From IMG/VR virus record IMGVR_UViG_3300027306_000018, positions 1 through 21,083 of that record: DNA of 21,083 nucleotides. One strand, given 5' to 3'. Below, in pieces: positions 13,935 through 21,083 of the stretch. A program made the translations under genes and the position numbers. Every line of letters starts with the position of its first letter. Positions within the stretch are counted from its first letter, which is position 1. Source of the DNA: a virus. The notes below the pieces were generated by a model. It did not search any database and was not told the DNA's origin. It saw only the letters and a list, made by a program, of their open reading frames with translations.

Positions 13935-15047
13935 TTACTGGGCGGCGTAGCAGGAGATCACGCCGAAGTCTTCGACGGAGCCGGCTTCGTAGATGTTGCC
14001 GAACTTGGGCTTCAGGAAGCCCAGGATCTTGCCCACCGAGATGCCTTGCTGGTTCTCGTAGTCGAAGCCCTTCTCGACCCACTCGGGGGCGCCGATGTCG
14101 GCCATGCCCAGCGCCTGTGCGCCGCAGAACAGGATCTGGCAGCCGTCGACGGTGCCGCTGGCGCCCCACTTGGAACCCGAGGCGGCGCCACGGGTGTTGT
14201 AGACGTGGCGGAACTCGTGCAGGTAGATGCCGTCGATCTTCACGCTGGAACCGGTGAACAGGGCGTTGTTCTTGTCGGCTTGCTGCGAGTGACGCAGGTT
14301 CAGCATGTAGTCGGGGTCTTGCTTGAGTTTCGCGAACGCCGAGGGGGTCAGGAAGGCGTGGTAAGTTTCCTCGCCGCCGTCTTCCTTGATGCCGCGGATG
14401 TAGCGCTCCTTGGCGTAGGCCTTGAGCTGCACGAACATGTTCCACGTCGGGGTGTCGGCAGCGGCCAACGCGGACGTGGCGGCCGAAGCGACCAGCGTCT
14501 TGTTGGTGCCGTCCCAGCGCAGGCGGCGGTTGGCAGACGGGGCGGCCACGTCGGAGCCGAACTCGAGGAACGGCAGGTCCGAACCGGTGCGGTTGGTACC
14601 GTTGTTCTTCTTGCTGTAGGCCACGCCGGACATGGTCAGGAAGGCCAGCTGGTCGATGCGGTCGGCCAGCCAGTAGGCCAGCACGTCGCGGCTGTTGCCA
14701 CGGAACTCGACGATCGACTTCTGGTCGGCCATGCGACCTTCATGGCGGTTGGCGTGACGCAGCTGGTCGACGCGGATCACCTGATCGAAGGTCTGCATCG
14801 CTTCTTCGTTGCCTTCCAGGGTGCGGTCGCCGGCCACGCCGTCGCCTTGCAGGTCAGCGAGCAGCGTGATGACAGCGCGGGCGCCCTTCTCGGTCTTCTT
14901 CAGCTCGGTGATGTGCTGGATCAGCGAGTTGGGGCCTTTGCCCAGGAAGCGGTTGACGAAAGACATGTTGCGGGCCTGACGCCAGAGGTCCATCGACCAA
15001 ACGGTCTTCTGTTCACTGGTCAGCAGGCCAAAGTTCGTGAGTGCCAT
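13935..15047 (-). CDS. Major capsid protein, N4-gp56 type
   Basis: A 370-residue protein. The start is ATG 15047 (MALTNFGLLTSEQKTVW), set by a perfect SD (AAAGGAG) 6 nt upstream; an in-frame GTG at 15101 adds 18 unlikely residues without an SD. The N-terminal region (residues ~10-80: WSMDLWRQARNMSFVNRFLG, then IQHITELKKTEKGARAVI and GDGVAGDRTLEGNEEAM) matches my recollection of the N4-gp56/DUF4043 capsid family. Later segments include GRMADQKSIVEF, WLADRIDQLAFLTMSG and AYAKERYIRGIKEDGGEE, with a beta-rich C-terminus ending GVISCYAAQ. It forms the HK97-like icosahedral shell around the scaffold. It is preceded by a terminator and its own leader, consistent with separate, high-level expression. 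Confidence 0.9.
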   Translation of the reverse strand: MALTNFGLLTSEQKTVWSMDLWRQARNMSFVNRFLGKGPNSLIQHITELKKTEKGARAVITLLADLQGDGVAGDRTLEGNEEAMQTFDQVIRVDQLRHANRHEGRMADQKSIVEFRGNSRDVLAYWLADRIDQLAFLTMSGVAYSKKNNGTNRTGSDLPFLEFGSDVAAPSANRRLRWDGTNKTLVASAATSALAAADTPTWNMFVQLKAYAKERYIRGIKEDGGEETYHAFLTPSAFAKLKQDPDYMLNLRHSQQADKNNALFTGSSVKIDGIYLHEFRHVYNTRGAASGSKWGASGTVDGCQILFCGAQALGMADIGAPEWVEKGFDYENQQGISVGKILGFLKPKFGNIYEAGSVEDFGVISCYAAQ

Positions 15048-15165
15048 GGGGCTCTCCTTTGACTGTGGGTTGAGGTACTGGCATTTGTCGTGTCTCGCCA
15101 CGACCAGCGAACTGAGAATGTGTCGTCATCTCGCACGATGGGAGCGAGTGTAATCTACTTTTTAC
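15048..15165 (-). promoter_or_regulatory. Capsid gene leader and possible promoter region
   Basis: A 118-nt non-coding stretch between the terminator and the capsid ATG. From the distal end it holds an AT-rich patch with inverted repeat GTGTAA-N8-TTACAC (plus 15148-15153 and 15162-15167), a small hairpin TCGTG-GCGAGA-CACGA (15088-15103) and the SD AAAGGAG. Because the terminator cuts the upstream transcript, a promoter is expected here, and the AT-rich patch (TAGATT, TACACT) is the best candidate. I could not find a convincing -35/-10 pair. The inverted repeat could be an operator; this is inference. Confidence 0.4.
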
Positions 15166-15167
15166 AC

Positions 15168-15200
15168 AAAAGAGAACAGCCCGCGGTGCGGGCTGTTCTT
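15168..15200 (-). terminator. Rho-independent terminator after the tailspike gene
   Basis: On the minus strand GAACAGCCCGC-ACC-GCGGGCTGTTC is a perfect 11-bp GC-rich stem (plus arms 15174-15184 and 15188-15198; an A-T pair extends it to 12). It is followed at once by TCTTTTGTG. This is a textbook intrinsic terminator, 15 nt after the tailspike stop codon. It would end the portal-scaffold-tailspike transcript before the capsid gene. Confidence 0.88.
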
Positions 15201-15213
15201 ACTCAGCAACGGA

Positions 15214-17913
15214 TCACGCGAAGTACGCGAGAGCGCCGCCCTTTTGCACCCAGCTCGATCCGTTGTAGACAAAGCGCGTGCTGCCGGTGGAGCCGGCGGC
15301 GGCTGTACCGTCGTTCGCCTTCTTGAACACCTCGTTCCACGTTACCGTCACCGCCCCGCCGGCCGGGTGCACGATGGTGATGTCCAGTTCGTCGCCTTTA
15401 CGTGCAGACGTGGGCGCGTTGATGGTCAGGTTTGCGCTGGGCTGCAAGATGATCTTGCGGCTCGCCAACATGCTGTGCGTCACGGACGCCGCTTTGTATA
15501 CACGCGTGTCGCACGTGATACCCAGGGTGTTCGTCACCGACAAGATGGGTAGGCCCATCACGTTCGTGCTCAGTGGCGTGATAACGCCGCTGAGGTCGCT
15601 GTCTTTGATGATCAGTCCGTTCCCGCGCACCGGCGAAGGCGATGCTGCGCCGATGCCGTACGACGACGCTCCACCGCGAATCGTGACTCGTTCCAGAGTG
15701 ACCGTGTTCTGCGTCAGCGCCGTGCGGCCAGGGGTCGTGACGGTAGCTCCGCGCAGACCGACGATCTCGTTGTTGAAGTCCTTGAGGTAGATGGTCGTGT
15801 CGCCGAACATCTTGTAGATCCAGTAGTACCCGTCGAGTGAGCCCCCGCCGGACAACACGTTGTCGAAGATGCCGACATAGTCACCGACGCGCCACCCGAT
15901 CGCGGGCGTACCGATCGGGCACTCGTAGTTGCCGAAGCCGTCCACGGTATCAGTCGCCGTCACGAAAACGTGCTCTTGCCAGTAATTGCCGTTGAACGCG
16001 AAGTTGACGGCTGCGCAGTCCACCTGAACGCCCTCGAGCAGGCAATCGCGCAAGATGGTATTGCGCGCGTTGGCCAAGGCCACGTGGCCTACCACGCCTG
16101 ACACGTTCGCATTGCTGACGAGGTGCCCAGAGATGCAGTTGTCGCGGGTCTTGTGCACCGTCGACGAGTTCACGATCTGAACACCGCCGTTACCCGGCAT
16201 GTTCTGGCAGTTGACCGTCGTCTGCGTGCCCTGGACGTCCTGCAGATACCCAACGCCGAAGCGGGTTGCCGAGCCAGTCGTGTCGTTGATGGTGACGCTG
16301 GCTTCGATCGACGTGTCCATCGTGCCGACGTTCGTCACGCCGAACGCGTTCACGCCGGAGTGAGTCAGTTCGAGGAACAACTGGCAACCAGAGCCGGTGC
16401 CGCCCGTGGGCAGGTTGGGGGTGGATGGCAGAGCGGTGTACTTGCCGCGCGAGATGGGGCGCACTGCCTCGACCTCGCCGTTGGGGCCGACCTGCGTGAC
16501 GCGGAACACGGCCGCTTCTTGCACAGAGCCGCCCGCTAGCGTCAAGTCGTCGCCGACGGTGTATCCGGTACCCGACGACACGTGGATCAGCTGACCGGAC
16601 GTCCAGGGGGCAAAAGCCGTGCTGTCCAGGCCCACAGTACTGCGGTAAGCGATGTCACTCAGGCCGAAGGTGTTGGCCGTGGGGATACGGACTTGGTAGA
16701 AACCCGTCAAGTTCTGCATACCGCTGGACGGAATGCCGATGAACGTGACCACTTTGCCCGTGGTCAATCCGTGCCCGTTGAGCGAGACGATGGCCTCGCT
16801 GGCGAGCGACACAGCCGAGGGCGAGCCGATCAGCGTGCCGGGTACCGCCGAATACACCCCGGTCCCATCGGTCCCGATGTCCAGATCGGCCTTCACGTGA
16901 ACGTCGCGCAGGTCCGCGATGACGCTGGTGTCGGGTGTGGCGTGGTTGATGAACGCCACGCCGCCGTTGCGCAGCTGACCGACACGGCCCGTGAACGACA
17001 CGCGCCCGCCGGACACGCGCCCGGTCTTCGTGTACCCCAGCTCGGCGGCAAAGGGCTTGGTCGCCGGCACGTACACCTTGCAGCCCATGCCGCGCGTACC
17101 AAGTGCCGACACGCCGACGGCCGAGAAGTTTTTGAGTCCCTGATCGTCGTAGTACTCGGTCGCCGTGATGCGGTCGTCACCGAAGGCCAAGCAGTCGTCG
17201 CCGGCTTCGATGTACCCGCCGATCACGTGGATGTTCTCGCCGAACAGGATGTGCAGGCCGTCTTGGAACACACGAGTGGCGCCCAGGATCGTCGGGTTCA
17301 CGATCGAGATGTTCTTGCCGCCGATGCGCGTGGACCAGTTCAGCGACCACAGGCCGGCGATGAGCGTCACGTCTTTGATCAGCAGGTTCTCGACGTTGAA
17401 GTACTCCATGATGGACAAATAGTCCTTGTTCGCAGAGTCCAGCGTGATGTCTTCGAGGCCCATGTAGCGTGCTGAGCCGTACCAACTGCCGTTCTTCTTG
17501 TTCCACTTGGCGCGGATGACTGACGACAACGGGCTGGTGAACAACCCGTTGTTGACATAGGCGGCGTTGGCTGTCTTGATCAGCGTGGTGCCATTGCCCT
17601 TGATGTGGATGAACTCCGGGTGCCACAGGCCGCTCACGAGGTACGGCGCTTGCCCGTACAGCTCGACAGTGCGGCGGCGCTTGGAGGCAGCAGCCTCCGC
17701 CCCCATGGTGTCCAGAAAGTCTTGCAGGATCGCGGTGTCGTCGTTGCCGCTCGGCTTGGGTGCGGCAAATGCCGCACCCGACGACACATCCGGCACCCAC
17801 CCGGCGCCCTCGTAGTAGACCCACGCCGAGCCGTCGCCCATGCTGATGGTGTCACCCGTTTTGTAGCCTGGGAGGTTGGAAGGGGAGGTAACGAGGTTCG
17901 AGGTGTAGTGCAC
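15214..17913 (-). CDS. Beta-helix tailspike with GH28-like motifs
   Basis: An 899-residue protein starting at GTG 17913 (SD CGGAGA). Residues 1-45 form a short N-terminal module (GDGSAWVYYEGAGWV) that could attach to the virion. From ~57 a pectate-lyase-like parallel beta-helix begins (NDDTAILQDFLD, FIHIKGNGTTLIKT, ENLLIKDVTLI, KNISIVNPTIL). FQDGLH at 216-221 and GDDCLAF at 238-244 resemble two conserved polygalacturonase (GH28) motifs, giving D218, D239 and D240 as candidate catalytic residues. The last ~80 residues form a beta-sandwich ending GSSWVQKGG. It likely binds and cleaves a host surface polysaccharide. It sits between scaffold-side genes and the capsid gene, followed by a terminator, which suggests an inserted module. 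Fold confident; enzyme activity plausible. Confidence 0.85.
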   Translation of the reverse strand: MHYTSNLVTSPSNLPGYKTGDTISMGDGSAWVYYEGAGWVPDVSSGAAFAAPKPSGNDDTAILQDFLDTMGAEAAASKRRRTVELYGQAPYLVSGLWHPEFIHIKGNGTTLIKTANAAYVNNGLFTSPLSSVIRAKWNKKNGSWYGSARYMGLEDITLDSANKDYLSIMEYFNVENLLIKDVTLIAGLWSLNWSTRIGGKNISIVNPTILGATRVFQDGLHILFGENIHVIGGYIEAGDDCLAFGDDRITATEYYDDQGLKNFSAVGVSALGTRGMGCKVYVPATKPFAAELGYTKTGRVSGGRVSFTGRVGQLRNGGVAFINHATPDTSVIADLRDVHVKADLDIGTDGTGVYSAVPGTLIGSPSAVSLASEAIVSLNGHGLTTGKVVTFIGIPSSGMQNLTGFYQVRIPTANTFGLSDIAYRSTVGLDSTAFAPWTSGQLIHVSSGTGYTVGDDLTLAGGSVQEAAVFRVTQVGPNGEVEAVRPISRGKYTALPSTPNLPTGGTGSGCQLFLELTHSGVNAFGVTNVGTMDTSIEASVTINDTTGSATRFGVGYLQDVQGTQTTVNCQNMPGNGGVQIVNSSTVHKTRDNCISGHLVSNANVSGVVGHVALANARNTILRDCLLEGVQVDCAAVNFAFNGNYWQEHVFVTATDTVDGFGNYECPIGTPAIGWRVGDYVGIFDNVLSGGGSLDGYYWIYKMFGDTTIYLKDFNNEIVGLRGATVTTPGRTALTQNTVTLERVTIRGGASSYGIGAASPSPVRGNGLIIKDSDLSGVITPLSTNVMGLPILSVTNTLGITCDTRVYKAASVTHSMLASRKIILQPSANLTINAPTSARKGDELDITIVHPAGGAVTVTWNEVFKKANDGTAAAGSTGSTRFVYNGSSWVQKGGALAYFA

Positions 17914-17928: not shown

Positions 17929-18270
17929 TTAGGTGGCGTGGGTTCCTTCAACCCCACGTGCGATGCGGTCCTTGGTACGCGACTCGAGGGCCTGTGCGGC
18001 CAGCTCGATGTGGTTGATCGCGCGCTGGTTTTCAGCGCACGGGAACTTGCCGTTGAGCACCTTCATGCGGTGCGCCAGCACAGCGAGCAGAGCCTCGTTG
18101 GTCAGGCCATTGACGCCGGCCTCCTTGATCGGACCGAGCTGGAACGCCAAGCGGAAGGTGGAACGCCCGGCATGGACGTCGTACACGTGCCCCTCGACGT
18201 TGGTGCCATCGGACATGCCGGAAATCGCGTTCACATAGACGCCGTTGTGATCTGTGTGGATGCGGGTCAT
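17929..18270 (-). CDS. Acb2/Tad1-hairpin-like protein (possible anti-CBASS/anti-Thoeris sponge)
   Basis: A 113-residue protein. Residues ~28-48 are beta (HVYDVHAGRSTFRLAFQLG). GPIKEAGVNG (46-55) leads into a helix NEALLAVLAHRMKVLNG. A second helix (AENQRAINHIELAAQALESR) ends with the signature RTKDRIARGVEGT (98-110). The 'GPIxExGVNG..NExLLAV.. N..A...LE.A...L..RT..R..RGVEGT' pattern matches what I recall of the phage Acb2/Tad1 hairpin domain, whose members sequester cyclic oligonucleotides (CBASS) or gcADPR (Thoeris). It begins 2 nt after the scaffold stop with a GGAGG SD, inside the structural operon. The family call is recollection; the ligand is unknown. A simple structural role is the alternative. 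Confidence 0.65.
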   Translation of the reverse strand: MTRIHTDHNGVYVNAISGMSDGTNVEGHVYDVHAGRSTFRLAFQLGPIKEAGVNGLTNEALLAVLAHRMKVLNGKFPCAENQRAINHIELAAQALESRTKDRIARGVEGTHAT

Positions 18271-18272
18271 GC

Positions 18273-19310
18273 TCAGGCCTCCAGTTCATCGCCGCGCATG
18301 GCAGCCAGGGTCTTGTCGTCGAGCTTCATGAAGTCGTCCTGCGACATCTTGAGCACGTCCTTCGCGCTGATCTGGCCGCCGAGCTTGTCGTGGTCTTGGC
18401 CAACCTTCGTCGTCGCCGGAGGCTGTTTGCCGGCCACGTCAGCGTTTTTCTTGCGCTGCTCGAGGGCGCGCGCTTCCGCCTTGGCCTTGGCCGCGTCTTC
18501 CGCGCTGACGCGCGGGGTGGCCTCTGCCGCGACTTCCTGGGCCTTCGTCTTCGGCGGCATGACGAGCTTGATGGCCTTCTGCAGCGCCTGGGAGGGGGTG
18601 TAGCCGGTCGCTTGGTACGCGGCCTTGAGTTCCAGCACTTCGGCGGTCTTCGTCTTGTCGAAGTCGGTGTGCTCAGGGTTCAGCTGCGGGTAGGCCTCTT
18701 CCATCCGCTCAACCAGGGTGTCGTAGCGCACGCGCTCGACGGCGCGCGCCTCGGCGGCCTGGATGTCCATGGTCATGCGCTTGGAGCTGATGTCGCGGTC
18801 CATCATGCGGATTTCGCGCATGAGCGTGTTGGCCTTGTCCACCTCACCGTCGGTCACAGCCTTGTTGTACTCGGCCTCCTTGGAGATGAGCTTGTCTTCG
18901 AGCTGGGTGATCTCGTCGTTGGTCGCGGCGACCTGCTGGCCCTGCTGGAACTTCGAGAGCTGCTGCTCCAAGGCCTCGCGACGGCCGCGCTCAGCCTCGA
19001 GGATTTCCTTGTGACGGCTGAGCGGGATGCGCGCGTCGGCCTTCGTGGCCTTGCCGTCACTGCCTTTGTCCGGGTTGTCCGGGTCCACGTCATCTTCGTC
19101 CCCGCCGGTACGCAGAGACGCATCGGTCGTGGAGGCGTCCGACTTGGTGTCGGCCTGCGTGGCGTCGGGCTTGACGTCAGGCTTCTTGACTTCGTCCTCC
19201 GTGGACACCCAGTCATCGCCGCGGTCGACCGCGCCGCCGCCAGCACCGCCTTGGTCGGCGGAGTCTGCGGGCTTCATGTAACGCTTGAACATCCAGTGCA
19301 GCTTGATCAT
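18273..19310 (-). CDS. Capsid scaffolding protein
   Basis: A 345-residue, very hydrophilic protein. Residues ~15-95 are acidic and Lys/Asp/Thr-rich (TGGDEDDVDPDNPDKGSDG), probably disordered. Residues ~97-245 are long charged helices (RHKEILEAERGRREALEQQL, then EITQLEDKLISKEAEYNKAV). A second Ala/Lys/Glu-rich helix and a C-terminal helix (ISAKDVLKMSQDDFMKLDDKT) follow, the latter suited to binding capsid subunits. Composition, coiled coil and position directly after the portal fit a scaffold, which guides capsid assembly and leaves before or during DNA packaging. ATG 19310 overlaps the portal stop as ATGA, with an AAGGA SD inside the portal gene. No protease motif is visible. Confidence 0.82.
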   Translation of the reverse strand: MIKLHWMFKRYMKPADSADQGGAGGGAVDRGDDWVSTEDEVKKPDVKPDATQADTKSDASTTDASLRTGGDEDDVDPDNPDKGSDGKATKADARIPLSRHKEILEAERGRREALEQQLSKFQQGQQVAATNDEITQLEDKLISKEAEYNKAVTDGEVDKANTLMREIRMMDRDISSKRMTMDIQAAEARAVERVRYDTLVERMEEAYPQLNPEHTDFDKTKTAEVLELKAAYQATGYTPSQALQKAIKLVMPPKTKAQEVAAEATPRVSAEDAAKAKAEARALEQRKKNADVAGKQPPATTKVGQDHDKLGGQISAKDVLKMSQDDFMKLDDKTLAAMRGDELEA

Positions 19311-21083
19311 GCTGTTTCCTTCGGGTTGGTGGGTTGAGGTTGGTTGGCTTGCTTCACGGACACGGCGCGCTGAACTGCGGCGTCTTGTTCGCGAATACGG
19401 GCGTTCTGGTGCGCCTCCATCTGGCGCAGCCCGAACTCGAACTGCATTTTGCGCTCTTCCATGCTCATTTCGTGCTGGAACTTCTTCTCGCTCAGCGCGA
19501 TGTCGGCCTGCACCTTCATCACCTGAGCTTGAGCGCCGTTGTCTTCAGGGGGCGTAGCCGCCTCCTTCTCAGCCAGGATGCCCTCTTTGCGGGCCTTGGC
19601 GTGCTTGAGTCCTGCATCAGCCTGCTTGCCAGCTGCCTCTGCTTCAGTCTTGGCGACTTCGGCCTGCTGCCCGCGCATGGCGAGTGCACGCTGTGCCTGG
19701 GCTTCAGGGCTGTTGGCAGCCTCGGACATCTTCTTGATGATCTCACGCTTGCCGATCAGGCGGCTGTTCTCGATCAGCGTCTCGTCGGGGATGGCGACGC
19801 CGAGTTCTTTCAGCGCGACCGCCTGATCGAACTGGCTGTCTTCCAGGGTCTCGCGCTGCGGCACGCTCGATGTGACGGTGTCGTACTCACCGAGCATCAG
19901 GTCGTTCACGACGGTGCCGTCAGGGCTCATGCCGTTGATGGTGAACGTCTCTTCTTCGCCGGTGAGCTTGTCCTTGGTGATCGTCAGGATGCGTTCCTCG
20001 GTGTAGAACGCCTGCACGAGGTCAAGGATGTTGCGGGCCAGGACGAAGTCCGTGCGCGTCAGGCTGTCCAGCGGCTTGACGAAATTCGTGCTGCCCGCTT
20101 GGCGCTTCGCCTGGATCGCCTTGGCGGCCACGTCGGCGCGGTCCTGCCCCTGCATGCTGTCCGACACGCCAGAGATGCCCTTGAGGTGCTCTTCGGCCTT
20201 GTAGCTGATGCGGTCCAGGCCCTGCGGCACTTGGTTTGGCTGGATCTTGACCAGATCCTTGTCCGGGTCGCCGTTGACCTCGACCACGAGACCGGTCTCG
20301 GCGCCACGCTGCTCGAGCTCTTCGGCGCTCATGTTCACCAGGGCGCCGGCCTTGGCCTTCCAGCCGCTGTTCGCCGTGGTGTTGACGACGTGCAACTCCT
20401 GGCTCGAGACCTTGTTGAGCAGCTCCTGCGGCCCGATCAAGTTCTCAACGAGGCCGATGGTCGTGCCGTGGCGGAAGAACGGGAAGAACGGCACCACGGT
20501 GAAGTGCTTGTACGGGCTCCAGTCATCATGCAGCACGACGTTGTCGGCGATGACGGTCCAGCGGATTCGGTGAACCAGCTTCGGCACAACCTTGAAGCCA
20601 AACTTCTCCACGAACCACGCGATGCGGTCGCGATCGAAGTCAGCCGGAACGGCACGCATATCGCCTGTCGTGGGGTCCACGAAGTGCTTCTGCTTGTCCA
20701 GCTTGCGGTACTGACGTTCGATGAGGCGGATGTTACGCATCACGCTCGACTCATCGTACGTGCCGTTGTACATCGGGTTGAAGCGATCGCCAAAACGGTC
20801 GCGAGTGGACTGGATGCTGTCGTACCCGTACGGAAAGAAGCTTTGCTCGCGGTTGCGCAGAATTTCAGCGTCTTCCTTGTTGTACAGCACCGCGATGTCG
20901 TCAGCCGTCACCCACTTGGTCGTGAAGACCTCGTTCCACGTGTCGGGGTCGTACTGCTCGCCGTCCGGGTCGACGATCACGTTCTTGGGGTTCAGGTTCT
21001 CGATGACGACTTCGCCCTGCAGGCTGTCGTTGAACCCGATGCGCACGTCGAGGAACCCGCGCGACGTGATGATCCCGTCGGCG
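19307..21083 (-). CDS. Portal protein, P22-like, 5'-truncated
   Basis: The open frame continues past the right edge, so the N-terminus is missing; 591 residues are visible. An internal GTG at 21046 is not the start, because the in-frame upstream codons read ADGIITSRGFLD, a typical portal segment. Next come VRIGFNDSLQGEVVIENLNP and VIVDPDGEQYDPDTWNEVF, then a wing/stem-like region with FFPFFRHGTTIGLVENLIGPQ, SSQELHVVNT and SGVSDSMQGQDR. These are the hallmarks of P22-type portals (dodecameric DNA gate at the packaging vertex). The last ~150 residues are a charged coiled coil (EVAKTEAEAAGKQADAGLKH, then MSMEERKMQFEFGLRQMEAH), suggesting a helical barrel. It overlaps the scaffold gene by 4 nt; the terminase is presumably just outside the window. 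Confidence 0.88.
   Translation of the reverse strand, partial: ADGIITSRGFLDVRIGFNDSLQGEVVIENLNPKNVIVDPDGEQYDPDTWNEVFTTKWVTADDIAVLYNKEDAEILRNREQSFFPYGYDSIQSTRDRFGDRFNPMYNGTYDESSVMRNIRLIERQYRKLDKQKHFVDPTTGDMRAVPADFDRDRIAWFVEKFGFKVVPKLVHRIRWTVIADNVVLHDDWSPYKHFTVVPFFPFFRHGTTIGLVENLIGPQELLNKVSSQELHVVNTTANSGWKAKAGALVNMSAEELEQRGAETGLVVEVNGDPDKDLVKIQPNQVPQGLDRISYKAEEHLKGISGVSDSMQGQDRADVAAKAIQAKRQAGSTNFVKPLDSLTRTDFVLARNILDLVQAFYTEERILTITKDKLTGEEETFTINGMSPDGTVVNDLMLGEYDTVTSSVPQRETLEDSQFDQAVALKELGVAIPDETLIENSRLIGKREIIKKMSEAANSPEAQAQRALAMRGQQAEVAKTEAEAAGKQADAGLKHAKARKEGILAEKEAATPPEDNGAQAQVMKVQADIALSEKKFQHEMSMEERKMQFEFGLRQMEAHQNARIREQDAAVQRAVSVKQANQPQPTNPKETA

Follow-up and report, generated by a model that had tools for sequence, protein, structure and literature searches.

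Tad1 (Thoeris anti-defense 1) and Acb2 (anti-CBASS 2) are the described systems closest to the phage gene considered here. Tad1 is described as an N-terminal antiparallel β1-β4 sheet followed by two long C-terminal helices, and the same account gives Acb2 as two helices preceded by one short helix at the N terminus (PMC12043709). Acb4 (PF13876), Tad2 (PF11195) and RyDEP/RyR (PF02026) are also nucleotide-signal antagonists; their families differ from Tad1, and they occur in the same genomic slot as the gene described below. The sponge Acb4 belongs to PF13876 and reportedly lacks structural homology to Acb2, Tad1 and Tad2 (PMC11722364). PF11195 carries a Tad2-derived Pfam name, and members of PF02026 are reported to degrade or sequester 2'/3'cADPR, some of them being enzymes (PMC13232231).

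We analyzed a 21,083-base stretch of viral DNA, referred to as the window. A first-pass annotation, made from the letters alone, had proposed an Acb2/Tad1-like nucleotide sponge gene at 17929-18270. This gene proved to be real and to lie on the minus strand, which the annotation had left out. The explanation that best accounts for the evidence as a whole, and that we regard as highly probable, is that it encodes a Tad1-family sponge and is an exchangeable accessory gene in an antagonist slot of the head operon.

Organization of the head operon in the window

The gene order in the window is portal, scaffold-position protein, Tad1-like gene, spike-like protein and major head protein. The features are as follows.

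19307-21046, minus strand: portal protein, 579 aa (phrog_156, 1.8e-76)
18273-19310, minus strand: scaffold-position head gene, 345 aa; borders the slot on its upstream side, with its stop 2 nt before the ATG of the Tad1-like gene
18278-18282, minus strand: GGAGG Shine-Dalgarno sequence of the Tad1-like gene, 7 nt 5' of its ATG and within the end of the scaffold gene
17929-18270, minus strand: gene for a Tad1-family protein, a likely signal sponge, 113 aa (ORF; PDB profile match 4e-32; fold Z 12.0; dN/dS 0.12)
15214-17913, minus strand: large spike-like gene, 899 aa; second slot cargo (weak phrog_9703 match only; role assigned by reading)
15173-15199, minus strand: terminator-like hairpin in the gap between spike and capsid genes, 12 pairs with a T-rich tail (pattern match only)
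13935-15038, minus strand: major head (capsid) protein (phrog_334, 5e-79); downstream border of the slot

The portal protein is 579 aa long here versus about 711 in relatives, its gene being cut by the end of the 21,083-base record. The capsid gene start at 15038 was set from relatives, and the ORF itself opens at 15101. A PHROG search gave no confident family for the scaffold-position protein, whose syntenic relatives are 84% and 46% identical, and its scaffold role was assigned from position.

The tight spacing and separate Shine-Dalgarno sequence first described for the Tad1-like gene were both found: the ATG lies 2 nt past the scaffold stop and 7 nt past GGAGG, and the GTG of the spike-like gene begins 15 nt past the Tad1-like stop. 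Four other contigs contain 89% identical copies of the gene in an unchanged gene order, and comparison with one of these copies gave a dN/dS of 0.12, which points to purifying selection. The copies, their shared order, this ratio and a phmmer match to a solved Tad1 structure (2.4e-10) together argue that the ORF did not arise by chance.

A scan for terminator-like hairpins gave 4 sites versus a shuffle mean of 7.3, so that the hairpin at 15173-15199 is only suggestive. The sigma-70 promoter scan gave 1 site versus 1.1 in shuffles; thus, the timing of transcription is not readable from the sequence.

Assignment to the Tad1 family

The window protein was named by profile and fold searches. When compared with the PDB by phmmer, it matched CmTad1 (8kbb, 2.4e-10), gp184 (8y6v, 2.2e-7) and CbTad1 (7uav, 1.3e-5), and a profile of 47 aligned rows matched the same three proteins at 4e-32, 2e-20 and 4e-24, respectively. 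It is also 49% identical over 70 aa to a protein of phage SBSphiJ7 that is annotated as Tad1. Its PHROG matches were to families of unknown function, the best being phrog_2428 (4e-30).

Pfam gave no match for the window protein. The cut-off of PF24729 (Acb2_Tad1_hairpin) was reached neither by the protein nor by its copies in relatives' contigs, although this model, which is a database model and not a biological definition, was matched by 21 of the 47 alignment rows at E 0.01. The cut-off is 27; two relatives in the sub-branch described below scored 26.7 and 27.9, and the SBSphiJ7 Tad1, unlike the window protein, reaches it with 34.2. A PADLOC search did not place the protein in a usable family, and the sole NCBIfam match was to a prolyl isomerase, with 18.4 bits versus a cut-off of 198. 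As a separate observation, in a protein of Burkholderia phage FLC9 (L181:2242-3255; loci are designated by L and a number) a complete prolyl isomerase of the cyclophilin type (PF00160, 2.5e-44) is followed by a fused Tad1-type domain.

The structure of the window protein was predicted as a monomer from the 47-row alignment, with a mean pLDDT of 93.8. The model has strands at residues 2-6, 11-18, 24-34 and 37-43 and helices at 58-75 and 79-105. All 16 Foldseek matches to the PDB under 1e-3 were Tad1, and VIA-align superposed the model on CbTad1-gcADPR with a Z of 12.0 (rmsd 2.3 over 109 aa), the next unrelated chain having 7.1. Acb2 chains were absent from the Foldseek and VIA-align rows shown, an absence that carries no evidential weight. 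By Pfam's combined name for PF24729, the window protein has the C-terminal helical hairpin in common with Acb2. An Acb2 identity was nevertheless rejected, since Acb2 is by description without a β-sheet, whereas the window protein has a predicted four-strand sheet.

The kinship first proposed in general terms is therefore specifically with Tad1, by sequence (4e-32 with the profile) as well as by fold (Z 12.0), and membership in the Tad1 family, not merely a likeness to Acb2 or Tad1, is well supported. The suggestion that the N-terminal ~30 residues might add a function did not survive the comparison: the N-terminal 43 residues form the ordinary Tad1 β1-β4 sheet, which leaves no added module.

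Conserved residues and the short-loop sub-branch

The motifs pointed out in the first-pass annotation are present at residues 52-55 (GVNG), 81-85 (N-x2-A-I), 98-102 (RT-x2-R) and 105-110 (RGVEGT). The whole-length fold, FQ-G, N81/R98/R102 and the RGVEGT tail are common to the window protein and the Tad1 proteins CbTad1 (7uaw/8smd), CmTad1 (8kbb) and that of SBSphiJ7. Residues F43, Q44, G46, G52-V53-N54-G55, E59, L61, R68, N81, R98, R102 and G109 never change in the 47-row alignment. Three of them, N81, R98 and R102, are thus the same in 47 of 47 rows, and they align with the gcADPR contacts N92, R109 and R113 of CbTad1; these CbTad1 pocket numbers agree with the residue types and with the entry numbering in the alignments.

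The window protein differs from these Tad1 proteins by an inter-helix loop that is one residue shorter and by Leu in place of Phe. The shorter loop was found in 19 of the 47 rows (the window and 18 others), all with Leu72, and the longer loop in 28, of which 27 have Phe. Leu thus occupies the aligned position in 20 of 47 rows in all and Phe in 27, and CbTad1, CmTad1 and the SBSphiJ7 Tad1 all have Phe there. This position corresponds to F82 of CbTad1, presumably a ligand-contacting aromatic, which is not known to be essential. Judged by loop length and this residue, the window protein belongs to a distinct sub-branch of Tad1. The earlier suggestion of a new subfamily with another ligand therefore stands as to the sub-branch, and as to the ligand it stands only in the sense that the short-loop proteins could have a shifted preference.

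An unlikely extension of this idea is that the short loop and the Phe-to-Leu change have abolished sponge activity, or have adapted the protein to a quite different small molecule. The 19 short-loop rows with Leu, set against the Phe of CbTad1, CmTad1 and the SBSphiJ7 Tad1, are what such a change would look like. However, N81, R98, R102, F43, Q44 and GVNG are kept in 47 of 47 rows, the gene appears to be under purifying selection, and two other phage groups likewise have members of the sub-branch in their antagonist slots, as described below. These observations argue against such a loss or change.

A hypervariable slot in same-capsid relatives

The Tad1-like protein itself is one more Tad1, and the novelty lies mainly in the slot: the window gene differs from the known Tad1 genes in sitting within a podovirus head operon slot. 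Scanning with the capsid protein gave the best 80 of 312 related stretches, which together with L014, from a scaffold scan, made up 81 loci. In this set (best 80 of 312 plus L014), the capsid gene was present in 81 loci and the scaffold gene was visible in 75; the gap between the two ranged from 141 to 4,522 nt and was shorter than 260 nt in 17 of the 75. Tad1 was found in 5 of the 81 loci, some of which are incomplete. Four of the five are of the window species, and the fifth, L071, carries Tad1 between portal and scaffold. Four named phages were examined. In KPP25, AP1 and phiA008, no gene is annotated in the scaffold-capsid gap; AP1 has a gene between portal and scaffold, and ctwe8250 has several between portal and capsid. 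The portal-scaffold-capsid gaps are a hypervariable slot in the same-capsid relatives. The spike-like gene at 15214-17913 is slot cargo as well, carried only by the window species among the loci compared, and the slots of other relatives hold different fibre-like, lipase-like or lysis genes, or none.

We searched 105 of the 140 gap ORFs against Pfam, omitting 8 window-species copies and 27 others, mostly judged spurious. The matches comprised 16 to PF13876, 11 to RyR, 8 Tad2-like and 1 to Acb2_Tad1_hairpin, along with ones or twos of endonuclease VII, lipase, lysozyme, sigma factor, holin and others. By these matches, signal antagonists are the commonest recognised alternative cargo of the slot. 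In one slot (L036:4327-5265), RyR, Tad2 and Acb4 genes stand in a row.

As a control, the three Pfam families PF13876, PF11195 and RyR were scanned over 40 of the contigs, the longer ones, in 39 of which the gap was visible. This gave 33 matches (14, 5 and 14, respectively), of which 29 fell in the portal-scaffold-capsid gaps, which account for 52,031 of 1,744,983 bases (3.0%). The remaining four formed two PF13876-RyR pairs located outside the slot in the L048 and L054 contigs. Of the 40 contigs, 20 had one or more members of the three families in the slot. The binomial figure for 29 of 33 is 2e-40, which overstates the enrichment because the contigs are related; the number of changes on a tree is safer. 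Of the 73 rows in which the slot was visible, 34 carried at least one of four families (the three Pfam families and Tad1), and at least 19 changes were counted on a quick capsid tree. For these 73 rows, the window species was counted once, with the window itself included, and the state labels were assembled by hand, that of L081 by its likeness to L074. A scan with PF24729 over 46 records gave only two matches, both below the cut-off, and missed the window species; Tad1 was therefore not part of the 40-contig control. The PF13876 and RyR genes of L048 and L054 are adjacent, which suggests that the pair moves as a unit.

Slots beside other capsid types

Members of the short-loop sub-branch were also found beside two other types of capsid gene. 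In L114, the gene lies between a MuF-type head gene and the scaffold gene of a second capsid type (phrog_241, 206, 247), an arrangement shared by Acinetobacter sp. WC-141 (L185), and in L145 it lies directly 3' of the capsid gene of a third type (phrog_3437). Six of 11 loci from named genomes or MAGs were tested, and L185 alone matched a tested head operon; L183, L184 and L186-L188 had none of the tested head proteins nearby. No head gene was recognised alongside L004 and L005, whose homologues are 58-61% identical to the window protein, L004 being cut 327 nt upstream. Placement among head genes is therefore not universal.

The slots of the second and third types were scanned with profiles built from members of the first group's slots, together with the Tad1 alignment. 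The slot was visible in 69 of 80 loci with the second capsid type: 34 held Acb4, 4 Tad1 and 29 no known antagonist (one of these, L241, has a short Acb4 fragment), and 2 were empty. In the third type, all 28 slots were visible; 7 held Acb4, 2 Tad1, 2 Tad2 and 10 no known antagonist, and 7 were empty. Measured from the capsid gene, every match in these flanks occupied the slot position. Of the Acb4 and Tad2 picks compared with Pfam, 9 of 9 were confirmed, and a tenth protein, which is Tad1-like, had no match. Because both lineages had been chosen for Tad1 beside head genes, only Acb4 and Tad2 are informative there, and because many of the loci are near-identical prophages, the counts demonstrate exchange and not its frequency.

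Unlike signal-cancelling families thus replace one another at one narrow site in the head operon, beside three capsid types. This could amount to an "antidote slot", dedicated to the swapping of Tad1, Tad2, Acb4 and RyR next to scaffold and capsid genes in tailed phages with unrelated capsids; the antidote would then be produced at the same time as capsid assembly, which sets off the alarm. In our judgment, this reading is as likely as not. The exchange at this site turns the question of whether sponge production coincides with the capsid trigger into a testable one. This slot, with its interchangeable signal antagonists, most deserves further study, and through it new antagonists could be recognised from gene position even when their sequences resemble no known family. 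Word searches of the literature, with most subscription papers outside their scope, apparently returned no paper describing such a slot.

Proposed function and alternative explanations

By its family and its slot, the window protein is likely a signal sponge. Tad1 proteins form hexamers of three dimers and hold gcADPR and cyclic trinucleotides uncleaved, thereby blocking Thoeris or CBASS. The small protomers of the window protein would assemble, most likely as a hexamer, and would bind and sequester, without degrading, the cyclic ADP-ribose signals that TIR proteins of Thoeris make; cyclic nucleotides of CBASS may be bound as well. With the signal sequestered, the suicide effector of the host would never be switched on. 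Related phages carry Acb4, Tad2 or RyR-type antagonists in the slot instead.

The sponge is expected to be made together with the head proteins, when signalling that senses the capsid would fire. The first-pass annotation had considered late production with virion parts to be poor timing for a sponge. The location among head genes is as it described, but the objection is questionable, because the major head protein is itself a reported activator of Thoeris, in staphylococcal as well as streptococcal systems (PMC12578639). An interaction between a CBASS sensor and a prohead protease of a phage has also been reported (PMC12409349). The activity of SPO1 Acb4 and DyoEdafos RyDEP is apparently early or early-to-mid. 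Given this early activity and the hairpin before the capsid gene, joint expression with the capsid is only expected.

A different answer to the question of timing, less probable than a loss or change of activity, is that the sponge is packed in the head and injected with the DNA, and is active from the first minute, like gp184 of phage phiKZ. By profile, gp184 is a Tad1 homologue (PDB 8y6v, 2e-20), and we assume that the 8y6v chain is the phiKZ protein. It is reported as a validated injected protein (PMC10449902), a review states that phiKZ injects its Tad1 (PMC13282480), and the window gene does lie among head genes. However, gp184 is 230 aa long and its Tad1 part starts at residue 115, whereas the 113-aa window protein is without the extension of about 115 N-terminal residues. 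Nor is a common packaging signal apparent, because the slot members of other families are mutually unlike.

It is very improbable that a Tad1-fold protein has been re-used for head assembly or decoration without signal binding, as had also been suggested: the location between scaffold and spike and the expected late expression would fit, but Tad1 is present in only 5 of 81 same-capsid loci (best 80 of 312 plus L014), four of them of the window species, the gap is below 260 nt in 17 of 75, no gene is annotated there in KPP25, AP1 or phiA008, signal antagonists are the most frequent of the alternative cargo that was recognised, and the pocket residues are invariant. An essential head protein was rejected as a candidate, since Tad1 is not in every same-capsid operon. 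A signal sponge is thus favored over a head protein by the intact pocket, by slots that stand empty and by the families exchanged there, and the exchange seen in the slot sequences supports counter-defence over head assembly.

Other small proteins of the slot

If the antidote slot exists, uncharacterised small proteins of the same slot would be new signal antagonists, above all PF21825 (crAss001_48), which we consider a candidate. This small helical family shares these slots: in L293:5968-6519 it is fused to Acb4, and in L289:5937-6161 and L026:2701-2940 it stands alone. In L294:5981-6454, it is fused to an N-terminal adapter that is also found on Tad1 and Tad2 proteins. The adapter has the pattern GYL.EY.DGG...GYISWSP.DVFE.SY, and Tad1, Tad2 and PF21825 proteins carry it (L114:3713-4342, L288:5933-6502 and L294:5981-6454). 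The Tad2 protein of L036 has, by eye, an adapter-like stretch that gave no score in the adapter search. Two further small proteins, of 63 aa (L206:5433-5621) and 56 aa (L275:5196-5363), have no Pfam match and lie at the slot position that in relatives holds Acb4, Tad1 or Tad2.
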